Source of the DNA: a virus
Direction: 5' to 3' (one strand)
Virus record (IMG/VR): IMGVR_UViG_3300043449_000594
Span: 1-32,397 of that record
Length of the DNA: 32,397 nt
Positions 1,284 through 32,397 of this stretch are shown in pieces. The position numbers and the translations under genes were made by a program. The notes under the pieces are model-generated. The model saw nothing but the letters and a program-made list of their open reading frames with translations. It did no database searches and was not told where the DNA came from. The stretch's first letter is position 1, and the number at the start of each line of letters is the position of its first letter.

Positions 1284-1545
1284 GACGAAGGAAATGCGTC
1301 GCGCCAGAAACCTCCGCATGCGGGAGAAGATGGCGAAGGATCCAGATTACGCCGCCCAGGTTCGCGCGCGGGTTAAGGCGGCCAAGGATCGATACGAGGC
1401 CAAGCTCAAATCTGACACGCTAGAGGGCGCAGCTCTGAGGGCCAGGCGTCAGGCAGCGCAGGATAAGTTCAAGACGGGGCAGATAATCACAACGCCTCGA
1501 AAGCCTGGTCGGATCGTATCAATGTGCGAGTGGAACGGGTGGTGA
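1276..1545 (+). CDS. Small basic protein of unknown function
   Basis: Eighty-nine residues, rich in Arg, Lys and Ala, with a long amphipathic helix (RARNLRMREKMAKDPDYAAQ) and a short C-terminal tail ending CEWNGW. An in-frame upstream codon at 1231 would give a longer product, but the purine-rich GGGGAGAGAAGG (1264-1275) lies directly before the ATG at 1276, and that start gives only an 8-nt overlap with the previous gene. The charge suggests nucleic-acid binding, but no known domain is recognised. It is part of the same rightward run of short early-type genes. Confidence 0.5.
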   Translation: MAETKEMRRARNLRMREKMAKDPDYAAQVRARVKAAKDRYEAKLKSDTLEGAALRARRQAAQDKFKTGQIITTPRKPGRIVSMCEWNGW

Positions 1546-1549
1546 GAGC

Positions 1550-1735
1550 ATGAGCAGTTTGGTTCGCAATAATTCAAAACCGCCGGTAGAGCAGCTGACG
1601 CCGGTCGAGGCCAAGGTCTGGGAGATGTTCGAGGCCGGCAAGACAGTCGATGAGATTGCGCAGGCGCTGAGCATGAAGGTCGTGTCCGTGCGCCGCCGGA
1701 TGCCTGTGATCAAGGAGAAGCTCGCATGTCAGTAG
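1550..1735 (+). CDS. Small helix-turn-helix protein, paralogue of the first gene
   Basis: A 61-residue protein with an HTH of the sigma-70 region 4 type at residues about 16-55: LTPVEAKVWEMFEAGKTVDEIAQALS, then a recognition helix SVRRRMPVIKEKL. It aligns without gaps to the C-terminal half of the protein at 6-203. Likely a small DNA-binding regulator. The gene begins 4 nt after the previous stop. Its last codons contain the next gene's Shine-Dalgarno (AAGGAG at 1712-1717), and its stop lies inside the next gene. Confidence 0.6.
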   Translation: MSSLVRNNSKPPVEQLTPVEAKVWEMFEAGKTVDEIAQALSMKVVSVRRRMPVIKEKLACQ

Positions 1736-1986
1736 GAGACATGGTCAACAACCCGCCGCACTACACCGGCCATCCCTCAACTGTTGAGTGCATCCAGATC
1801 ACCGAGCATATGGGGTTCTGCCTGGGCAACGCGGTCAAATACATTTGGCGGGCGGATCTCAAGGGAGACGCCATTTCTGATCTAGAGAAGGCAAAATGGT
1901 ACATCAGCCGCGAGATCCACCGGCGCCGGCTAATACAATCGTCTCAGGCCGGTCATGCCGAGAAAAATGATCCCGTTCGCTTGTAG
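1726..1986 (+). CDS. DUF3310 family protein
   Basis: An 86-residue protein. Residues 7-66 match the DUF3310 (phage nucleotide-kinase-like, SaV-like) pattern: NNPPHYTG, then VECIQITEHMGF, then GNAVKYIWRADLKG, then DLEKAKWYISREI. The family is common in phage early regions. Its biochemical role is not settled, although a nucleotide-metabolism link has been proposed. AAGGAG lies about 8 nt before the ATG at 1726; an alternative ATG at 1741 also has TAGGAG in front, so the first five residues are uncertain. The last ~18 residues overlap, tail to tail, the leftward repressor gene (1930-2151), and they lie beyond the conserved domain. Confidence 0.8.
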   Translation: MSVGDMVNNPPHYTGHPSTVECIQITEHMGFCLGNAVKYIWRADLKGDAISDLEKAKWYISREIHRRRLIQSSQAGHAEKNDPVRL

Positions 1987-2151
1987 CGTCTCTTGGATGA
2001 GCTGGATGGTGTCGTCAGAGATCGGCACCTCTCGCTCGCTCTCGGCGCGCTTGAGCGTGGCGATGGATATGCCGGCAAGCTCGGCCAGCTCCTCCTGCTT
2101 CATAACGAGGAGATGCCTGGCGGCTCTGATTTGTGCTGGTGTAATCGACAT
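1930..2151 (-). CDS. XRE (Cro/C1-type) HTH repressor
   Basis: A 73-residue protein with a canonical XRE HTH at residues 4-58: ITPAQIRAARHLLVMKQEELAELAGISIATLKRAE, then an IQETLQANGIIFL strand-helix end. This compact form, with a C-terminal IIFL segment, is common among alphaproteobacterial phages. A GAAGG Shine-Dalgarno lies about 5 nt before the start. It is the only leftward gene in the left part and faces the promoter at 2199-2227, where the palindrome TGATAC-N4-GTATCA would suit a dimer. A half-site (GTATCA at 2160-2165) sits in its own leader, so autoregulation is likely. A near copy of the palindrome lies before xis/int (31496-31511). It overlaps the DUF3310 gene by 57 nt, tail to tail. 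Confidence 0.8.
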   Translation of the reverse strand: MSITPAQIRAARHLLVMKQEELAELAGISIATLKRAESEREVPISDDTIQLIQETLQANGIIFLGMTGLRRLY

Positions 2152-2198
2152 GCGACCTTCGTATCAGACCGAATATTGATTGGCAATGAATAAGCCTG

Positions 2199-2234
2199 TT
2201 GACGGCTCTTTTGATTGCTGATACCTAAGTATCA
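2199..2234 (+). promoter_or_regulatory. Promoter with overlapping 16-bp operator
   Basis: TTGACG (2199-2204) and TACCTA (2222-2227) are 17 nt apart and could serve as -35 and -10 boxes for the rightward gene at 2253. The -10 region is inside a perfect inverted repeat, TGATAC-CTAA-GTATCA (2219-2234). A repressor bound there would block the promoter. The adjacent leftward XRE gene is the obvious candidate. The -10 box is weak, so the promoter call is less certain than the palindrome. Confidence 0.6.
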
Positions 2235-2252
2235 CCAACAGAGGAGATGGTC

Positions 2253-2594
2253 ATGCAAGTTCTTACCCACACATTTGTTCAAACCAGCATCGAACAATGC
2301 TCAGCTGGTCAATATTACTGGACGCGCGAGGAAGGCACTGTTGACGTCATCATCAACGGCAAGCTGATCACGGTGGAGGCTTCGCGCACGGAAGCTCTAT
2401 GGGCGCGCCCGACAGTATTTCTGCGCGGCTTTATTGGCCGTTACCGCACCAGCATGAAAAATTGGCGCGCGACGGTGACGGCTGACGCCGATGGCCGTGT
2501 CTCTGGCTGGTTTGGCCGCGACGATCGCTCTGGCCGCTACAACAAGCTGGCCGGAATTTCCTATGCTCCAGACCTATACAAGGCGGCGGCTTAA
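2253..2594 (+). CDS. Uncharacterised phage protein downstream of the operator
   Basis: A 113-residue protein of unrecognised family. It has a mixed alpha/beta look, with a strand-rich start (TVDVIINGKLITVEA), several Trp and Arg residues, and a basic middle (RYRTSMKNWRATVTA). GAGGAG (2241-2246) is 6 nt before the ATG at 2253 but abuts the ATG at 2247, so 2253 is preferred. It is the first gene after the operator-controlled promoter and is followed by a terminator-like hairpin, so it may be a single-gene unit responding to the XRE repressor. No HTH is visible, so a Cro-like role is not supported. Confidence 0.6.
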   Translation: MQVLTHTFVQTSIEQCSAGQYYWTREEGTVDVIINGKLITVEASRTEALWARPTVFLRGFIGRYRTSMKNWRATVTADADGRVSGWFGRDDRSGRYNKLAGISYAPDLYKAAA

Positions 2595-2598
2595 CGGG

Positions 2599-2620
2599 AG
2601 GGGCTACGGCCCCTCTATTT
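2599..2620 (+). terminator. Terminator-like hairpin
   Basis: A perfect 7-bp stem, GAGGGGC-TACG-GCCCCTC (2599-2616), followed by TATTTC. The U-tract is weak, so termination may be partial. It lies 5 nt after the stop of the 2253-2594 gene. Confidence 0.5.
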
Positions 2621-2651
2621 CAACCCGTTTTCAAGTTTACGGAGAGAACCC

Positions 2652-2900
2652 ATGAAATACGCAATCATCCCCATGCTGCTCCTGGCGACGCCTGCCGCAG
2701 CTCAGACCTCTCAATTCTACGGCGCTGATGGCGAATACCTCGGCAACATGCAGCCGGCTGGGCAGAACAATTTCATCTATGGCCGCGACGGCGACTACAT
2801 CGGCTCGACGGCTCCGGCTGGGCAGAACACGCTAATCTATGACGGCCAGGGCAATTACGTTGGCTCGGTTATTAACAGCGGGCCGCGCTCGCGTAATTGA
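2652..2900 (+). CDS. Secreted small protein with three Tyr/Asp/Gly repeats
   Basis: Eighty-two residues. The first ~18 (MKYAIIPMLLLATPAAA|Q) form a Sec signal peptide with an AAA-Q cleavage site. The mature part is three tandem repeats of about 20 residues of the form (F/L)IYG-x-DG-x-Y(I/V/L)G-S-x-x-AGQN. GGAGAG lies about 6 nt upstream of the ATG. Small exported repeat proteins like this are found in proteobacteria and their prophages, and this one could be a lysogenic-conversion (moron) gene altering the cell envelope. That is inference from export and position. It is bounded by the hairpin at 2599 and the terminator at 2972, so it may be an independent unit. Confidence 0.65.
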   Translation: MKYAIIPMLLLATPAAAQTSQFYGADGEYLGNMQPAGQNNFIYGRDGDYIGSTAPAGQNTLIYDGQGNYVGSVINSGPRSRN

Positions 2901-2932
2901 CGGCGACCGGGCTAAATGAGAGATTATGAGAG

Positions 2933-2950
2933 ACGGCGCACTAGCGCCGT
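2933..2950. repeat. Inverted repeat hairpin
   Basis: Perfect 7-bp inverted repeat ACGGCGC-ACTA-GCGCCGT in the gap after the secreted-protein gene. No T-run follows, so it is either an mRNA 3' hairpin or a protein-binding site. Confidence 0.5.
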
Positions 2951-2971
2951 AAGCGTTACCCAGATTTGCGT

Positions 2972-3005
2972 GGCCGGTGGATCAATCCCATCGGCCTTTT
3001 TCTTT
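2972..3005 (+). terminator. Rho-independent terminator ending the left module
   Basis: GGCCGGTGG (2972-2980) pairs with CCATCGGCC (2988-2996): 9 bp with one G-U, loop of 7 nt, followed directly by TTTTTCTTT. It separates the early or accessory left block from the late packaging genes. The remaining bases to 3124 show no gene or motif I can support. Confidence 0.85.
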
Positions 3006-3124
3006 GCGCGCATGCATCGATGTCCTGCCACAAAGGTAGCAGCATCCAGATGCCCGGCAGACGCAATCAAGCATCCATCTGACCCCAATACTGCGGCCTC
3101 GTTTGCACGCCTCTCTCCGGGCGT

Positions 3125-3775
3125 ATGACCTCGGCAGATGGGGCCGCAACCAACCAGATAGAACGGCAACAACGCATGACTGAGCCAGCAAAGAAGCTGA
3201 GCCGGACAGAGCGACTGCTGAACACGCGCCAGGCTGAGAAGCCGGTAGCAAAGCAGGCGCAAAGCCCCGGAAAGCCTGGGAAGACAGGCAGTCAAAAATC
3301 TGCGGCGCCTGAACAGTCTGCTAACCAACCTGTAGAGAAGAAGATAGGCAGACCATCAGGCTACTCAGAGGAGAGAGCCAGAGAGATCTGCGAGAGGATC
3401 TCAGCCGGCGCGCACCTGAACAAGCTCGTCGAAGAAGGCATCGTGCCAAGCCTCGCAGCTTATGCGAGATGGACGAGGGACAACGAAGCCTTTCGAGAAG
3501 CAGTCGCGCGCGCCCAGGAAGATCGAGCTGAACTCTGGGCTGACCAGCTTATCGAAATCGCCGACACCGACGAGGACGCCAACCGCGCTCGTGTGCGCAT
3601 AGATGCGCGCTGGAAGGTCATAGGAAGCCTGCTGTATCGCCGTTACGGGGTGAAGCAGAGCATAGACATCAATCAGAACGTCAATGTCGCTGTGGCCCAC
3701 GCTGATGCGTTGCTGCGCCTTGCAGGCCAGGCCAAGCAGATAGAGACGACCTACAAAGACGTCACGCCAACGTAG
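3125..3775 (+). CDS. terS: Terminase small subunit (Sf6-like)
   Basis: 216 residues from 3125, or 199 from the in-frame ATG at 3176; neither start has a strong Shine-Dalgarno. Residues 1-75 are Lys/Gln/Pro-rich and disordered. From about residue 76 the family pattern is clear: IGRPSGYSEERAREICERISAG begins an N-terminal HTH-like DNA-binding domain, with SLAAYARWTRDNEAFREAVARAQEDRAE as its second half. A central helical oligomerisation part (WADQLIEIADTDEDANRARVRIDARWKVI) follows, then a C-terminal tail. The protein recognises phage DNA at the packaging site and loads the large subunit. An ART-like gene separates it from terL. Confidence 0.85.
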   Translation: MTSADGAATNQIERQQRMTEPAKKLSRTERLLNTRQAEKPVAKQAQSPGKPGKTGSQKSAAPEQSANQPVEKKIGRPSGYSEERAREICERISAGAHLNKLVEEGIVPSLAAYARWTRDNEAFREAVARAQEDRAELWADQLIEIADTDEDANRARVRIDARWKVIGSLLYRRYGVKQSIDINQNVNVAVAHADALLRLAGQAKQIETTYKDVTPT

Positions 3776-4124
3776 CACAGCATCCTAACCTGTATTGCGT
3801 ATGGCTAGACATGCATGCAGATCAATGCGTTGCTGCATGGTTGATGTGTGTATGTGTGGAGATATGTGGGAGATCGGCGCTCCAGGGCGCGAGGGGGTGG
3901 CCGCGGCCCCCCTGGGGGCTGACCACCGGCGGCCCGGCCCTGACACAGCACCCTCTCTTGCTGTTCTCAAAAATCCCTCTGCCTATTCTCAAAAATCTCC
4001 CCAAAAAAATACAAAAAATTTGGACGAAAATAGCCCAAAACCCGGCATTTCATCCAAGTTTTGTGAAATCGAGCCGTTTGTACTGCAAACGATGTGGCTC
4101 CGTTAGATAGTCGAGATCTGCTCT
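3776..4124. other. Noncoding region beside terS with GC-rich hairpins then A-rich DNA
   Basis: No supported gene in 349 nt; the open frames here are short, basic and in low-complexity sequence. 3780-3870 is GT-rich with CATGCATGCAG and CTGCATGG segments. 3893-3927 holds strong GC hairpins: GGGGG-T-GGCC against GGCC-CCCCC, an alternative CCCCCC-T-GGGGG, and an outer GGTGG/CCACC. 3960-4080 changes abruptly to A-rich DNA with two copies of TTCTCAAAAATC. A regulatory or packaging (pac) region is possible because terS is adjacent; this is inference. Confidence 0.5.
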
Positions 4125-28488: not shown

Positions 28489-28662
28489 ATGTTGACCTCT
28501 TGGAAAACGACTATTCCCGGCATTCTGGCGCTTTTGGCTGTCGCCTGGAACGCTTGGCAGACCAAAACAATCAATATCGATGACGTCATCGCCGCTCTGG
28601 TCGGCGTTGGTCTTGTCCAGGCGAAAGATTGGAATGTCACCGGCGGAAATAAAAGCCTGTGA
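28489..28662 (+). CDS. Small membrane protein, holin-like (57 aa)
   Basis: ATG at 28489 with TAGGAGC 6 nt upstream, stop TGA at 28660-28662. The translation is MLTSWKTTIPGILALLAVAW, a polar turn, IDDVIAALVGVGLVQAKDWN, and the ending VTGGNKSL. Two hydrophobic segments and the GxGLxxAKDxNVTGG ending match a small family that recurs in lysis regions of proteobacterial phages. It is a candidate holin or pinholin-type protein; experimental function is not known. It overlaps the next ATG (TGATG). Confidence 0.7.
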   Translation: MLTSWKTTIPGILALLAVAWNAWQTKTINIDDVIAALVGVGLVQAKDWNVTGGNKSL

Positions 28663-28871
28663 TGACGATCCTGATCATCGGCTTGCTGGGCGCTTTTGGC
28701 GTGACCCTATTTATCTTCGCTCTCTCCCTGGAGCGCGAGAAGGGTGTGCTGTCCGAGCGTCTGCGCAAGCTGGAGGAGCAGGCGGCGATCGACAAGAAGC
28801 GCGCCGAGATCATTGCCCAGGCAAGGACAGATGATGAAACGATCGATCGCCTTAACAGCGGCACTTTTTAG
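28662..28871 (+). CDS. i-spanin-like protein (Rz-like)
   Basis: A 69-residue protein that starts inside the previous stop. An N-terminal transmembrane helix (ILIIGLLGAFGVTLFIFAL) is followed by a periplasmic coiled coil (LEREKGVLSERLRKLEEQAAIDKKRAEII). This is the topology of an inner-membrane spanin, shorter than lambda Rz. The next gene, in another frame and overlapping by ~38-41 nt, is a lipoprotein, the arrangement of overlapping Rz/Rz1 pairs. The pair would fuse the membranes in the last step of lysis. Confidence 0.7.
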   Translation: MTILIIGLLGAFGVTLFIFALSLEREKGVLSERLRKLEEQAAIDKKRAEIIAQARTDDETIDRLNSGTF

Positions 28872-29043
28872 CCTGGCCGCATGCCAATCAACCGGGGGCA
28901 GCGGTTGCCCGCCCCTGGTCAATTATTCCGCCGACCAGATGAAGAGAGCCGCCGCTGAAATGCGAGCGCTCCATAAAGACGCCGAGCTGCGCCGCCTGGT
29001 TACTGACTATGGCAAATTCCGCGATGCTTGCAGGGTGAAATAA
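28831..29043 (+). CDS. o-spanin-like lipoprotein (Rz1-like)
   Basis: 70 residues from 28831 or 69 from the ATG at 28834, which has the better spacing to AAGGA (28823-28827). Signal and lipobox: KRSIALTAALFSLAAC, then QSTGGSGCPPLVNYSADQ and a helix (MKRAAAEMRALHKDAELRRLV). It begins inside the i-spanin-like gene in a different frame. Mature part is helical rather than Pro-rich, so the match to classical Rz1 is by position and lipobox rather than composition. The stop overlaps the next ATG by 1 nt (TAATG). Confidence 0.65.
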   Translation: MMKRSIALTAALFSLAACQSTGGSGCPPLVNYSADQMKRAAAEMRALHKDAELRRLVTDYGKFRDACRVK

Positions 29044-29321
29044 TGGACGAAGAACCGACCGGCCACATTAGATGGGATTTCTCTTTAGGTAATATCGTGA
29101 ACCTTGTGGCTCTGGCCGGCGCCGGCTTTATCGCCTGGGGGTCGATGACTGAACGATCTGATGCAACCCACCAGGGTCTGTCGCATCTGACGGTCGCGCA
29201 GAAAGACATCGAGACCCGCGTGAGAGATCTGGAAACTGGACAAGCCAGATCCGCAGAGAAGCTGGAAAGCATCTTAAAGTCTGTTGAGAGAATAGAGGCC
29301 GCAATAGAGAAGCGAAGATAG
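29043..29321 (+). CDS. Small membrane-anchored coiled-coil protein
   Basis: A 92-residue protein. Residues 17-34 (LGNIVNLVALAGAGFIAWG) are a transmembrane helix. Residues 45-92 form a coiled coil (LTVAQKDIETRVRDLETGQARSAEKLESILKSVERIEAAIEKRR). This topology occurs in many phage lysis cassettes, annotated as holin- or hemolysin-XhlA-like; a second spanin-like or holin partner is plausible. It ends the rightward lysis group, 3 nt before the convergent hairpin. Confidence 0.65.
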   Translation: MDEEPTGHIRWDFSLGNIVNLVALAGAGFIAWGSMTERSDATHQGLSHLTVAQKDIETRVRDLETGQARSAEKLESILKSVERIEAAIEKRR

Positions 29322-29324
29322 AAA

Positions 29325-29340
29325 GAGGGCCGTAGCCCTC
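29325..29340 (-). terminator. Hairpin between convergent genes
   Basis: GAGGGC-CGTA-GCCCTC (29325-29340), 6 bp. On the minus strand it is followed by TTTCTATC, so it is better as a terminator for the leftward genes 29339-29853. The T-run is short. Confidence 0.5.
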
Positions 29341-29536
29341 AATCAGCTTTCGCAGCGCAATGCCCCTCATGGTCGAGGGGACAGAAATACCCGGCTGGAG
29401 GAAACTCTAGCCGGGCCTTTTTTGTTTCTGGCGGGTCGAGAAACGTATGAACGAGGGCCGCCACCCCGAGGATGACGACCAGCCCGATCAGGAAAACGAT
29501 CATCGCCGCCTCGAAGATTTCAAGGGCGGCTCTCAT
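29339..29536 (-). CDS. Small leftward membrane protein
   Basis: A 65-residue protein with one transmembrane helix (AAMIVFLIGLVVILGVAALVHTF, residues 10-32) and a soluble C-terminal tail with two Cys and two His (YFCPLDHEGHC). A zinc-binding hook is imaginable but not established. Its start overlaps the stop of the gene before it (ATGA at 29533-29536), so the two are one operon. The C-terminal coding part contains the rightward terminator in the opposite direction. No family recognised. Confidence 0.6.
   Translation of the reverse strand: MRAALEIFEAAMIVFLIGLVVILGVAALVHTFLDPPETKKARLEFPPAGYFCPLDHEGHCAAKAD
29390..29423 (+). terminator. Strong rightward terminator ending the lysis operon
   Basis: CCCGGCTGGAG (29390-29400) pairs with CTCTAGCCGGG (29405-29415): 11 bp with one G-U and a GAAA tetraloop; then CC and six T (29418-29423). 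It lies within the leftward gene at 29339-29536 and stops rightward late transcription. Confidence 0.88.
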
Positions 29537-29853
29537 GCCGCCGCCTTACGCTTGGCCGGCTTCTCTTCGATCGTCTCCAGCTGATCCGAGATGATCTTGC
29601 TGAGCGCTTCCAGCTTGGGGTTCGCCGGCGCCTGCGTCTCAGAGACGAGGCCATAGTGGTCGCCCGACTGCTGGGTCGGCGCCAGGGAGGCAAGATCCAG
29701 GTTCCAGGCGACGCCGAGCATGCGCTGGGTGTCGTCATAGATCCACGGCTTGTTGGCCCGGCCATCGAACACTTGCTGAGCGACGATCGAGTTAATGGCG
29801 ACGGTCAGGCGCGAGATGGCGCGCTGGTCGTTGATGATAGCCTCAAAGCTCAT
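29533..29853 (-). CDS. Uncharacterised leftward protein
   Basis: A 106-residue protein with AGGAG 8 nt before the start. The N-terminal half is helical (AIINDQRAISRLTVAINSIVAQQVF), then PWIYDDTQRMLGVAWNLDLASLAP, then an acidic helix and a Lys/Ala tail (EEKPAKRKAAA). No known domain is recognised. It is first in a two-gene leftward unit facing the lysis cassette and lies on the opposite side of attP from int; such genes often serve in lysogeny or exclusion. That is inference from position. Confidence 0.6.
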   Translation of the reverse strand: MSFEAIINDQRAISRLTVAINSIVAQQVFDGRANKPWIYDDTQRMLGVAWNLDLASLAPTQQSGDHYGLVSETQAPANPKLEALSKIISDQLETIEEKPAKRKAAA

Positions 29854-30001
29854 TCTGACATCTCCTGGCCGCCCAGGGAGATGCGAACCCTCACGCGCGG
29901 CGGGCGGCCAGCCGGGGGAGGGTTATTGGTGCCGGGCGATCCCCAGTGGCGGGCGCCGGTAATTTTTGAGCGAGAGAACAGGCGGCGAACAATGTAGTGA
30001 A

Positions 30002-30035
30002 TTTTGTGGGAGATCTGTCCCACAAAACTCCCACA
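30002..30035. promoter_or_regulatory. Perfect 10-bp inverted repeat with an extra half-site
   Basis: TTTTGTGGGA-GATCTG-TCCCACAAAA (30002-30027). A further CTCCCACA (30028-30035) repeats the right arm and pairs with TGTGGGAG (30005-30012). No gene lies here. It could be an operator or integrase/excisionase arm sites. Confidence 0.65.
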
Positions 30036-30042
30036 TGGCCCG

Positions 30043-30063
30043 TTTTGTTCTAGTTTTTGTTCT
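30043..30063. repeat. Direct repeat TTTTGTTCT x2
   Basis: TTTTGTTCT at 30043-30051 and again at 30055-30063, 12 nt apart (about one helical turn), left of the probable att core. The spacing would suit arm-type integrase sites. Confidence 0.4.
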
Positions 30064-30070
30064 GGGGGTC

Positions 30071-30099
30071 TTGCCGAGGCGCTAGAGAAGCTGTAATGA
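30071..30099 (+). promoter_or_regulatory. Promoter-like sequence in front of the tRNA half
   Basis: TTGCCG (30071-30076) and TAATGA (30094-30099) are separated by 17 nt. A start near 30106 would be 16 nt before the first tRNA base. After integration this could drive the hybrid tRNA gene. Confidence 0.5.
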
Positions 30100-30207
30100 T
30101 TTCTGTGCTTTACAAAAGCGCGCGGGCGTAGTTCAGTGGTAGAACGACAGCTTCCCAATAAGCGCTTAAAATAAGAGCAGAAATCAGCAAAATCAATCAT
30201 TTACAGC
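30090..30207. other. Probable phage attachment site attP
   Basis: The core is the tRNA-Gly half at 30122-30158. It is flanked by inverted copies of GCTGTAATGATT (30090-30101) and AATCATTTACAGC (30195-30207, one extra base). The integrase gene ends at 30193, inside the right arm. A perfect 10-bp palindrome TAAGCGCTTA follows the core (30159-30168). The location next to int and the tRNA identity support attP. The crossover point and the arm sites are inferred. Confidence 0.7.
30122..30158 (+). tRNA. Partial tRNA-Gly(CCC): 5' half only
   Basis: Acceptor 5' strand GCGGGCG (30122-30128), TA, D-stem GTTC/GAAC around AGTGGTA, then ACAGC and the complete 7-nt anticodon loop TTCCCAA with anticodon CCC. 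The 3' side of the anticodon stem, the T arm and the acceptor 3' strand are absent: the expected GCTGT is replaced by TAAGCGC. It therefore cannot make a tRNA by itself and most likely is the att core shared with the host gene. Confidence 0.85.
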
Positions 30208-31281
30208 GTGGCCCTTGTTGCCCTGCGGGGCGATTGATGGAGACGCGGCGGCGTCCAAAGCGGCGCGCACGTCCTCGGCAGCAAGATGAGCATACCGCTG
30301 CGTGGTCGTAATCCGCTTGTGACCGAGCGCTTTTGACGCCGCCATCAGATTGCCTGTCGCGCGCACGACGCGGGAGGCGGTCGTGTGCCGGAGGTCGTGA
30401 AGACGGAGATCTGAGAGGCCAGCATTTTTCCTAGCCCGCCAATAGGCCGTGGAAAGGGTGTCCGGGCAAATTGGGTTGCTGGCCCCGCGTGGCGCATTGG
30501 CAAAATCATGCCGTTTAACGACATAGGTGAAAACCCGGGTCGGGTGCTTTCCCAGCTCGCCCTGAAGGATCGCCATAGCGGCCTTTGGCAGCGGGCGCCG
30601 GTCGACCGTCCCGCCCTTGCCGCGAACCGTCATCGTGGCGGTGTTCATATCCACGTCGTTCCATACCAGATTGCAGGCCTCGGCCCGGCGGATCCCGGTG
30701 GCGAGCAGGAACTTGATGATGGGCAAAAAGTCGCGCCGGCAGGCGGCGAACAACCGCTGTTCCTCGTCCACTGACATCTCGCGGACGCGCTCGGCGTCCA
30801 CCTTCAGGAGGTGTTCGCGCCAATTAATCCGTTTGACCGGCTGCTCAAAGAACTCGGCGTATCGAATGATTGCGCGCAGCGCCTCTGTGACCGAGCGATT
30901 AACCGTTGCGTTAGTGACGCCATCGGCTCGTCGCTTAGCGACAAGCTGAGCAATAAGCTGATTATCTATTGTCGCCAGCGCTCTTTTCGGCCCGATGTGT
31001 TTCTGCATCCACTCAATGAAGCGGAAAACGTCCCTCTTATCTTTCCGGTGCTGGCCCTTATGCTCCCACCAGGTGGTAGCAGCCATTGCGAACGTCCACG
31101 GGATGACTCCGTTTAGTTGCTTCAAATACTCAGATTTCTCGGCCTTGATTTCCTCGACCCGCCTTTCGGCTTCTGCACGCTCAGTAAGTGCTGTCGATCC
31201 GTAAAATCGATGACCTTGAAGCTGGAAATCGTAGTGGTAGATGCTCCCCCGCCTATAGAGGCCGCTGATTTTGGCTGACAT
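30193..31281 (-). CDS. int: Tyrosine recombinase integrase
   Basis: A 362-residue protein. Core-binding domain at residues about 60-160; catalytic domain at 165-340 with R198 (LLATGIRRAEA), H295 and R298 (LHDLRHTTAS), H321 (LGHKRI) and the nucleophile Y330 (TQRYAHL). The N-terminal YRRGSIYHYDFQLQGHRFYGST is the usual arm-binding strand domain. GGAGG lies 8 nt before the start. It would recombine attP (30090-30207, at its own 3' end) with the host tRNA-Gly(CCC) gene. The start lies 160 nt inside the preceding HTH gene, so the two are tightly coupled. Confidence 0.95.
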   Translation of the reverse strand: MSAKISGLYRRGSIYHYDFQLQGHRFYGSTALTERAEAERRVEEIKAEKSEYLKQLNGVIPWTFAMAATTWWEHKGQHRKDKRDVFRFIEWMQKHIGPKRALATIDNQLIAQLVAKRRADGVTNATVNRSVTEALRAIIRYAEFFEQPVKRINWREHLLKVDAERVREMSVDEEQRLFAACRRDFLPIIKFLLATGIRRAEACNLVWNDVDMNTATMTVRGKGGTVDRRPLPKAAMAILQGELGKHPTRVFTYVVKRHDFANAPRGASNPICPDTLSTAYWRARKNAGLSDLRLHDLRHTTASRVVRATGNLMAASKALGHKRITTTQRYAHLAAEDVRAALDAAASPSIAPQGNKGHAVND

Positions 31282-31472
31282 ACAGTAATCCTCCCAGAGA
31301 TAAATGCGTCAATGTCGGATGGCCTGAACCTGTAAGCCGGGCGGGTCTTATTGCCGACGTTCACGAAAGGGATTTTCCCTTCCTTGATGATCTTCCGCAT
31401 CTGACGGCTGCATATGCCGAGGACGCTAGACGCCTCTTCCAGGTTCATTAATTTAGCCATAGCTTCCGCCAT
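31122..31472 (-). CDS. Excisionase-like HTH protein (xis candidate)
   Basis: A 116-residue protein; AAGGAA is about 9 nt before the ATG at 31472. Residues 6-60 form an excisionase/MerR-type winged HTH: AKLMNLEEASSVLGICSRQMRKIIKEGKIPFVNVG, then YRFRPSDIDAFISG. The remaining ~55 residues are basic, low in order and overlap the int start in another frame. It is directly upstream of int, the usual place for a recombination directionality factor; it could instead be a regulator of int. The operator-like repeat at 31496-31511 is 24 nt upstream of its start. Confidence 0.75.
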   Translation of the reverse strand: MAEAMAKLMNLEEASSVLGICSRQMRKIIKEGKIPFVNVGNKTRPAYRFRPSDIDAFISGRITVCQPKSAASIGGGASTTTISSFKVIDFTDRQHLLSVQKPKGGSRKSRPRNLSI

Positions 31473-31495
31473 CGCACTGTTCCTTTTACTCTGCC

Positions 31496-31511
31496 TGATA
31501 CTTTAGTGTCA
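31496..31511. promoter_or_regulatory. Operator-like repeat upstream of xis/int
   Basis: TGATAC-TTTA-GTGTCA, the same 6-4-6 design as the perfect operator at 2219-2234 with one arm base changed (GTGTCA for GTATCA). It lies between the stop of the 31509-31820 gene and the start of the xis candidate. A site for the XRE repressor is a reasonable inference. Confidence 0.5.
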
Positions 31512-31820
31512 ATGCCCGTCCTTTTTATTGGCGGGCGTCATAAAATCATTAATGTCCACGACGTTGTTTTCCTTGACCTCGCCGCTGACGACGATCGCCT
31601 GGAAAGCCTCATCGGTCGCTTCTTCCAGAAAATCGATCACGTCTTCCACGTCGTAGCCTCTGGCCGAGCAGTTGGCGGCGATGAGCAGGGCGAAGGCGTT
31701 GACCACGTCTTGGCCCTTTGACGATCCGATGGCGGCGCCGATTTTCTCATAGAGCGCAAAAGCCGGCTTGAGCCGTTCTCGCTGCTCCTTGCTCAGCATA
31801 AATACGACGCCTTCCATCAT
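31509..31820 (-). CDS. Uncharacterised small phage protein
   Basis: 103 residues from the ATG at 31820. AAGGA lies 4 nt before it, 7 nt after the upstream stop; a second ATG follows at 31817. A longer frame to 31883 would overlap the upstream gene and lacks a clear ribosome-binding site. The protein is helical (LSKEQRERLKPAFALYEKIGAAIGSSKGQDVVNAFALLIAANCSA, then YDVEDVIDFLEEATDEAFQAIVV), ending DINDFMTPANKKDGH. I recognise no family. It belongs to the leftward early operon ahead of xis and int. Confidence 0.65.
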   Translation of the reverse strand: MMEGVVFMLSKEQRERLKPAFALYEKIGAAIGSSKGQDVVNAFALLIAANCSARGYDVEDVIDFLEEATDEAFQAIVVSGEVKENNVVDINDFMTPANKKDGH

Positions 31821-31827
31821 TTGATCC

Positions 31828-32088
31828 TTACGAAATCCGCCAGACGCGAACACCGTCTGAAAAAGAGCGGGTAGAGAACGCAACAGCGTAATTTGTCCGT
31901 CGCTTGAACTTATAGCTGGCGGCTAAAACCCGGCGCATCTCAGCACGACGAACGGCAGTCGGCCCTTTGGTTGGGATAAAAAAGCTGTCACCCACACGCA
32001 TGGTAGCGAACGGATATGCGACAGCGTCTGCGTCTCTCGCACCAGTGCGTGGCTCGGGAAGCGGGATACCTTTTTCGACCTTAAACAT
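31828..32088 (-). CDS. Small DUF7303-like phage protein
   Basis: 86 residues from the ATG at 32088, which has ACGGAG 6 nt upstream; an in-frame ATG at 32106 has none. Phrases: FKVEKGIPLPEPR, YPFATMRVGDSFFIP, a basic helix (AVRRAEMRRVLAASYKFKRR), then GVRVWRIS at the end. This order (IPxP, YPFxxMxVGDSF, KFxxR, VRVWR) is a recurring small phage family of unknown function in early regions. It overlaps the upstream HNH gene by 8 nt and is followed by the 31509-31820 gene after 7 nt. Confidence 0.7.
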   Translation of the reverse strand: MFKVEKGIPLPEPRTGARDADAVAYPFATMRVGDSFFIPTKGPTAVRRAEMRRVLAASYKFKRRTNYAVAFSTRSFSDGVRVWRIS

Positions 32089-32397
32089 CTTTTTCTCCGT
32101 TAGCATTTTGATACAGACCTCGTTTTGGCATCACTTTACTAAGCGCAGGCCTCTGGCGTTCGGCTTTGCTGAAACCGCGTGACTGGATCTTCTTTCCGCT
32201 CGTCTCAATGCCAATCGCCCGCATTTTGATACGTTTCGCGCGAGCGATTGCTTTAACGTCCTCAATCGTCTTTTCTCTTGCGCAAGCCTCATGGACTGGC
32301 CGGAGGTTATCTTCGACCTCATTCGTTCCGCCCAGGCCAAGCGGTCGCATGTGTTCGACGACCCAGCGCTTGCCCTTAATCTCCAGGCCACAAAGAG
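32081..32397 (-). CDS. HNH endonuclease, N-terminus cut by window end
   Basis: The leftward frame is open to the window edge, so only the C-terminal part is visible. Reading from the edge: LCGLEIKGKRWVVEHMRPLG, then LGGTNEVEDNLRPVHEACAR, then EKT. This is the HNH ββα-metal core (first His in VEH, the GGxN, the NLxPxH and CAxxKT) with the second half of a likely CxxC zinc pair at the edge. A basic tail follows (AIARAKRIKMRAIGIETSG and on). Phage HNH proteins of this type may be packaging or recombination nucleases or homing enzymes; the early operon position suggests the former is less likely. It overlaps the next gene by 8 nt. Confidence 0.8.
   Translation of the reverse strand, partial: LCGLEIKGKRWVVEHMRPLGLGGTNEVEDNLRPVHEACAREKTIEDVKAIARAKRIKMRAIGIETSGKKIQSRGFSKAERQRPALSKVMPKRGLYQNANGEKDV

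Follow-up and report, generated by a model that had tools for sequence, protein, structure and literature searches.

The phage record analysed here (the window) is 32,397 bases long and, towards one end, carries a xis/int locus on the minus strand. This comprises xis (31122-31472, ATG at 31472), encoding a 116-aa HTH_17/excisionase-family DNA-binding protein that scores 28.4 bits against the NCBIfam 'excise' domain, just under the 28.8-bit cut-off, and, downstream of it, a gene for a tyrosine integrase of 362 aa (30193-31281). Upstream of xis and on the same strand lies p5 (31509-31820), a small gene without assigned function. Next to int is a 37-nt plus-strand fragment (30122-30158) resembling the 5' part of a tRNA, which we take to be tRNA-Gly(CCC); it is identical in the related records G005 and G006, ARAGORN reported no full tRNA there, and it is the probable attP core. 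No nucleotide match to positions 28500-32397 of the window was found in the phage collection. At the 36-nt gap between xis and p5 (31473-31508), in front of xis, sits the unstranded palindrome TGATAC-TTTA-GTGTCA (TGATACTTTAGTGTCA, 31496-31511; TGACACTAAAGTATCA as read on the minus strand), exactly where an earlier note on this DNA had placed it. The outer end of one of its arms is the TGA stop codon of p5 (31509-31511).

A similar element lies at the other end of the window, beside a minus-strand gene (1930-2151) for a 73-aa regulator of the XRE (HTH_3) type, identified by profile match and structure model and proposed here as the binder of the sites. Between xre and the gene starting at 2247 is a perfect, likewise unstranded palindrome (TGATACCTAAGTATCA, 2219-2234), and reading both sequences bears out the earlier note in that the two differ by one arm base, with 4-nt centres of TTTA at 31496 and CTAA at 2219. 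A weak second xre-side site with two mismatches (TGATACGAAGGTCGCA, 2151-2166, unstranded) lies over the xre start codon. Downstream of the 2219 operator, two accessory genes are encoded on the plus strand, one (2247-2594) with no family found and the other (2652-2900) with a signal-peptide-like start, as judged by eye, and short repeats; a homologue of the latter stands beside xre in nine XRE relatives. Family searches with the accessory ORFs gave no assignment. The protein of 2652-2900 contains repeated (F/Y)YG-DG-Y-G-like units. Among the 20 of 146 records listed, all nucleotide matches to 1500-4000 of the window fall inside the DUF3310 gene.

If one mismatch is tolerated, TGATAC-N4-GTATCA occurs twice in the window, against 0.05 expected from 40 first-order Markov resamplings of it, in which the maximum was one. 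The looser form in which the earlier note had written the motif, TGATAC-N4-GTNTCA, is likewise in excess: at up to two mismatches it has 12 matches on the two strands together, where shuffles average 4.66 and 2 of 100 reach 12. The 6-4-6 spacing that the note saw preserved is true of both sites, but as evidence by itself it was rejected, because inverted repeats of this design number 10 in the window when perfect arms are required and 187 when one arm mismatch is allowed; the weight therefore rests on the common arm sequence.

The XRE protein scores 27.8 bits against HTH_3, above the curated cut-off of 23, which places it in the family; its homologue in G009 reaches 32.1 bits and that in G008 21.6 bits, slightly under the cut-off. 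The best of five structure models has a pLDDT of 90, and its top fold match is C.Kpn2I (TMq 0.79, Foldseek E 0.001); P22 c2, P2 C and Aca1 are among the further matches, no fold match falling below an E value of 0.001. There was also a weak match to a 'control protein' (E 0.0006), and comparison with PDB sequences gave one weak match, to a chain named DBP48. The genome collection contained no relatives of the XRE or the integrase. Searches for the XRE yielded nine further records at 66-94% identity, thus ten with the window. In all ten a site adjoins the gene, nine times with at most one mismatch and in G002 with two, so that the co-conservation of site and regulator on which the earlier note had set store is found in the relatives, and the association persists in G009 at 66% XRE identity. 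The G009 locus (L035, 9630-9665) has two sites beside xre with centres 20 bp apart, suggesting paired binding. All four records that are long enough to contain both loci (G005, G008, G009 and the window) carry a site at both xre and xis, which supports the idea, put forward in the earlier note, of one small repressor over the left accessory promoter and integration/excision.

Loci with other XREs provide a comparison. Eight of them (36-48% identity, different recognition helix; 118 kb) contain no site at up to one mismatch, nor does a ninth (L008, 42%), nor do the whole records G011 and G012, which also carry other XREs. A control of 13 XRE-less terminase loci (116 kb) similarly gave no site at this threshold; it excludes L045, L052 and L054, short fragments with a cargo site (see below), and L046, which is part of G006, and these four contain 1, 1, 1 and 0 sites, giving 3 in 17 loci overall. 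At up to two mismatches the other-XRE loci hold 2 sites against 1.3 expected and the XRE-less loci 1 against 2.75. It has to be noted that within the XRE-less control the absence of the gene is well supported only in L051 and phiM5, most of the 13 loci extending too short a way beyond the terminase gene on its upstream side. L051, with a terminase 83% identical, has the accessory gene and neither XRE nor site, and the closest isolate by terminase, Sinorhizobium phage phiM5 (73%), gave no XRE match and no site at up to two mismatches.

The site before xis is present in all five related records aligned, being exact in G005, G006 and G007, matched at 15 of 16 positions in G009, and degenerate in G008 (12/16, two arm mismatches). 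G007 and G008, which share a common start of the xis sequence, have a different excisionase and integrase just downstream of the operator, the G008-type proteins giving no blastp match to the window type better than E 0.5; p5 is retained in both (94% and 79%), and so is the site, weaker in G008. Conversely, G009 has xis and int genes related to those of the window (51% and 67% identity) and an HNH gene where p5 would be, and here the site stands at 15/16 within 60-nt flanks that match at only 18/60 and 14/60 positions; L072 presents the same case. Since the site is kept both with a swapped xis/int and with a swapped p5, it is independent of both neighbours. The conservation argument leans mainly on G009, because the flanks in G005 and G006 (57/60 and 54/60) are almost as conserved as the site itself; in G008 the site is less conserved than its own left flank (51/60). 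Near-identical records (G009, G010, L025 and L072, and G005 and G006 at xis) do not count as independent. At nine distantly related integrase loci (22-30% identity) a site with at most one mismatch is lacking. G006 and G007 have the xis site and gave no XRE match, which is likely due to truncation of the records, as G006 ends inside terS and G007 gives no terminase match. Comparison of window 30193-31472 with L019, L014 and L039 (G007, G008) reveals a clean module-exchange junction right behind the operator.

A third class of sites was found in relatives at a small ORF of 54-60 aa which adjoins the terminase gene and is directed away from it, and to which the window has no match. The palindrome fills the spacer of a near-consensus promoter in G010, L025 and the L045, L052 and L054 contigs as well as in G001, G002, G005 and G009; in the latter four the fit is exact and the promoter has the form TTGAC(C/T)-NN-operator-TA(C/A)(A/G)AT, for example TTGACC-N18-TACAAT in G001 and TTGACT-N18-TAAGAT in G009. 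This geometry is as a blocking repressor would need it. The site is present at all nine such ORFs found, eight times with at most one mismatch and in G005 with two, and it is intact in L052, where ORF identity is down to 40%. With their own strong promoter and their place beside the terminase gene, these small ORFs are candidates for cargo or anti-defence genes. The ORFs at L003 747-929, L004 685-855 and L024 5769-5933 represent two sequence types at one place.

Across the long XRE records, the window has 2 sites with at most one mismatch, G005 has 2, G008 1 and G009 5, where 0.025-0.05 are expected in each, and 8 of these 10 lie at gene borders. Many copies inside coding regions, which the earlier note had named as the contrary outcome, are not what the window contains, its only such sites being the two at gene borders, although in G009 two of the five lie in genes, namely 8658 (start of terS) and 29450 (in a structural gene), the other three standing at gene borders. 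The 29450 site fell outside the filter of the table of sites and was seen in the whole-record scan. Sites in or at genes, which were counted as chance or unexplained, are G009 8658 (also in G010 and L025) and 29450, together with G002 1266, G008 15245, G009 38222 and G010 15375.

As to promoters, the outer arm of the xis operator forms a putative −35 box, TTGACA (31507-31512, minus strand), with a weak candidate −10, TAAAAG (31483-31488, minus strand), at an 18-nt spacer. This pair was obtained by scoring with sigma70 weights, in which the promoter had to overlap the site and the flanks were shuffled 100 times; a consensus scan turned up no sigma70 pair in either 31300-31700 or 2000-2400. The best-scoring −35 box lies in the same register at all five xis sites scored (window, G006, G007, G008 and G009, with the score reached by 7, 8, 0, 22 and 4 of 100 shuffled flanks, respectively). 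At the xre side, shuffled flanks reached the score in 4 (G003), 4 (G005), 9 (G008) and 59 (G009) of 100 cases, and at the window's own sites 2151 and 2219 in 41 and 97; at the cargo promoters the figures are 0, 0, 0 and 1 (G001, G002, G005, G009). Promoter pairs at the two xre-side sites of the window, which fell outside the overlap rule of the scoring and were missed by the consensus scan, can be read by eye: the 2219 operator would lie across the −10 (TACCTA at 2222-2227) of a TTGACG-N17-TACCTA pair directed rightward, and the 2151-2166 site lies over the −10 of a TTGCCA-N17-TACGAA pair. From −35 to ATG the distance at xis is 41, 41, 33, 33 and 35 nt (window, G006, G007, G008, G009) and at xre 36 nt in the window, G003, G005 and G008, so that the transcripts would be almost without leader; at the xis genes of G007 and G008 (33 nt) a usual start would lie just inside the ATG, so that the fit is off by about 3 nt.

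The position of the regulator relative to phage immunity is indicated by three relatives. G005 possesses a separate 98-aa XRE, which is cI-like, and a divergent 76-aa Cro/YdaS-like gene, with homologues of the pair in G008 (86%) and G009 (50% and 61%); the window, which ends before that region, contains no such pair. No TGATAC site lies beside the pair in G005, G008 or G009. For this reason the 73-aa XRE as the immunity (CI-type) repressor was rejected, and, because these three relatives have a separate cI/cro-like pair, the protein looks like a second, accessory repressor. A different perfect palindrome, TAACAA-N5-TTGTTA, is found on either side of cI at L018 11231 and 11871 (G005) and L039 14135 and 14774 (G008), and these copies are likely the operators of the true immunity switch; other inverted repeats lie near the pair in G009. 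In G005 and G008, according to ORF calls, p5, xis and int come last in a leftward gene run, at the start of which stands one TAACAA-N5-TTGTTA copy. The xis site thus appears to be a control point inside a set of genes that the switch region already governs. The earlier note's suggestion that the sites would bracket the regulatory ends of a circular genome fits the 40,402-base G005, where sites 4448 and 35308 would, if that genome is closed, be about 9.5 kb apart, with the cI/cro-like pair between them.

Taken together, we consider it probable, at roughly 0.77, that the 31496 site is an operator of the 73-aa XRE, which would repress xis-int, its own region and cargo genes and serve as a second lock. 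In the model proposed here, an XRE dimer would bind TGANAC-N4-GTNTCA, the half-sites lying one helical turn apart, and by covering the −35 box TTGACA before xis would keep RNA polymerase from starting the near-leaderless xis-int transcript. Further targets of repression would be its own promoter region along with the accessory genes next to it and, in relatives, the strong promoter driving the small cargo ORF that precedes the terminase gene. Given the gene run of G005 and G008, the XRE would act on excision/integration apart from immunity. The protein would be made mainly in the lysogen, a guess based on the tail-to-tail arrangement of its gene and the last gene of the neighbouring rightward run. 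Binding by the XRE, repression over activation and the promoter positions are inferred from sequence, conservation and association; the probable binder of the conserved motif is a second, small repressor that would shut off excision/integration and a few passenger genes. The wider proposition, that an accessory repressor apart from CI joins excision/integration to cargo as an Aca-like brake, with the operator and not the recombinase being conserved and xis/int modules of differing origin set behind one switch, stands in our estimation at even odds.

A different reading of the same sites, which we consider unlikely, is that the XRE is a CII-like activator which, bound at the −35 region, switches on integrase, cargo and xre itself as lysogeny is established. 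The −35 region is where CII-type activators also act, and the best-scoring −35 box is indeed overlapped by the site at xis and, in G003, G005 and G008, by that at xre; the −10 of xis is weak, as at an activated promoter, and the set of xre, int and an ORF opposite the late genes resembles lambda pRE, pI and paQ. An activator, however, usually needs one geometry, which steric repression does not, and the register of the sites varies from the −35 (xis, xre) through the spacer (cargo) to the −10 (gene 2247, as read by eye), while the near-consensus cargo promoter needs no activator. These three different placements with respect to promoters are the reason for preferring repression to activation.

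That the xis site is instead bound by Xis or Int in autoregulation, or by a CI-like protein, its likeness to 2219 being incidental, would accord with its place directly before xis and with the autoregulation of integrase and RDF described for KplE1 (PMC2951348). Against this, the site is kept with two unrelated xis/int types, similar sites lie by xre and the cargo ORFs, far from att, and the surroundings of cI in G005 and G008 have another palindrome; the proposal seems very improbable. The site as a property of the integrase or excisionase was rejected, given its persistence across unrelated modules. The least credible account in our view is that 31496 is a chance resemblance or reflects common ancestry of the p5-xis junction, without function. 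The left flank is indeed nearly as conserved as the site among the window, G005, G006 and G007 (54-57 of 60), and the G008 copy is degraded, but G009 keeps 15/16 with unrelated flanks and has five sites at up to one mismatch against 0.025 expected, three of them at gene borders.

Of the systems with which the proposed repressor can be compared, C.Kpn2I, its top fold match, is a small regulator as well, but no restriction-modification gene was found among those XRE neighbours that were searched. In the lambda CII regulon, too, one small HTH protein is linked with the region that encodes it, with the integrase promoter and with a promoter running opposite to the late genes; here, in contrast, the site is a palindrome and not a direct repeat, the promoter register varies and repression is more likely. 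Aca proteins (PMC9410906) are autorepressing and bind an inverted repeat placed within the core promoter that drives small phage genes, at times together with a second repeat. The likeness consists in the small HTH protein with a fold match to Aca1 and in a repeat within a strong core promoter, that of the cargo ORF, in relatives and not in the window. However, xre is divergent from the accessory genes, whereas an Aca gene lies in the operon behind acr, sites are here also found far away, before xis-int, and no anti-CRISPR was identified; because of this arrangement and the lack of a known anti-CRISPR the XRE is not filed as an Aca.

In cluster A mycobacteriophages (L5/Bxb1), one repressor likewise has several dispersed sites in the phage genome, which number 20-30, are asymmetric and lie mostly outside promoters (PMC6550527). 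The long records considered here differ from such stoperator systems in having 1-5 palindromes (at most one mismatch) each, 8 of 10 at gene borders, and the repressor there is the immunity repressor, whereas three relatives here have a separate cI-like gene. KplE1 intS shares an extra negative control on the recombination module, exerted there by IntS and TorI at attL (PMC2951348); the present site, by comparison, is separated from the att-like sequence by about 1.3 kb and outlasts replacement of int/xis, and its likely binder is a different one. No paper listed in the literature searches, which largely did not cover subscription papers, describes a second, small accessory repressor of a phage whose operators are dispersed between xis-int and cargo genes.

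If this repressor model is correct, excision and integration answer to two repressors, and prophages have a second lock on excision beyond the control of immunity, with the operator marking the junction where recombinase modules swap without control being lost. Small XRE genes by cargo genes are hard to tie to distant targets by sequence; here a target list is possible, and the operator could serve as a sequence signature for accessory (cargo) genes in uncultivated phages. An operator-like sequence across the terS start in G009 (L035 8658-8673, TGATGCTTTCGTATCA), also present in the near-identical G010 and L025, may be a fourth target or a chance occurrence.
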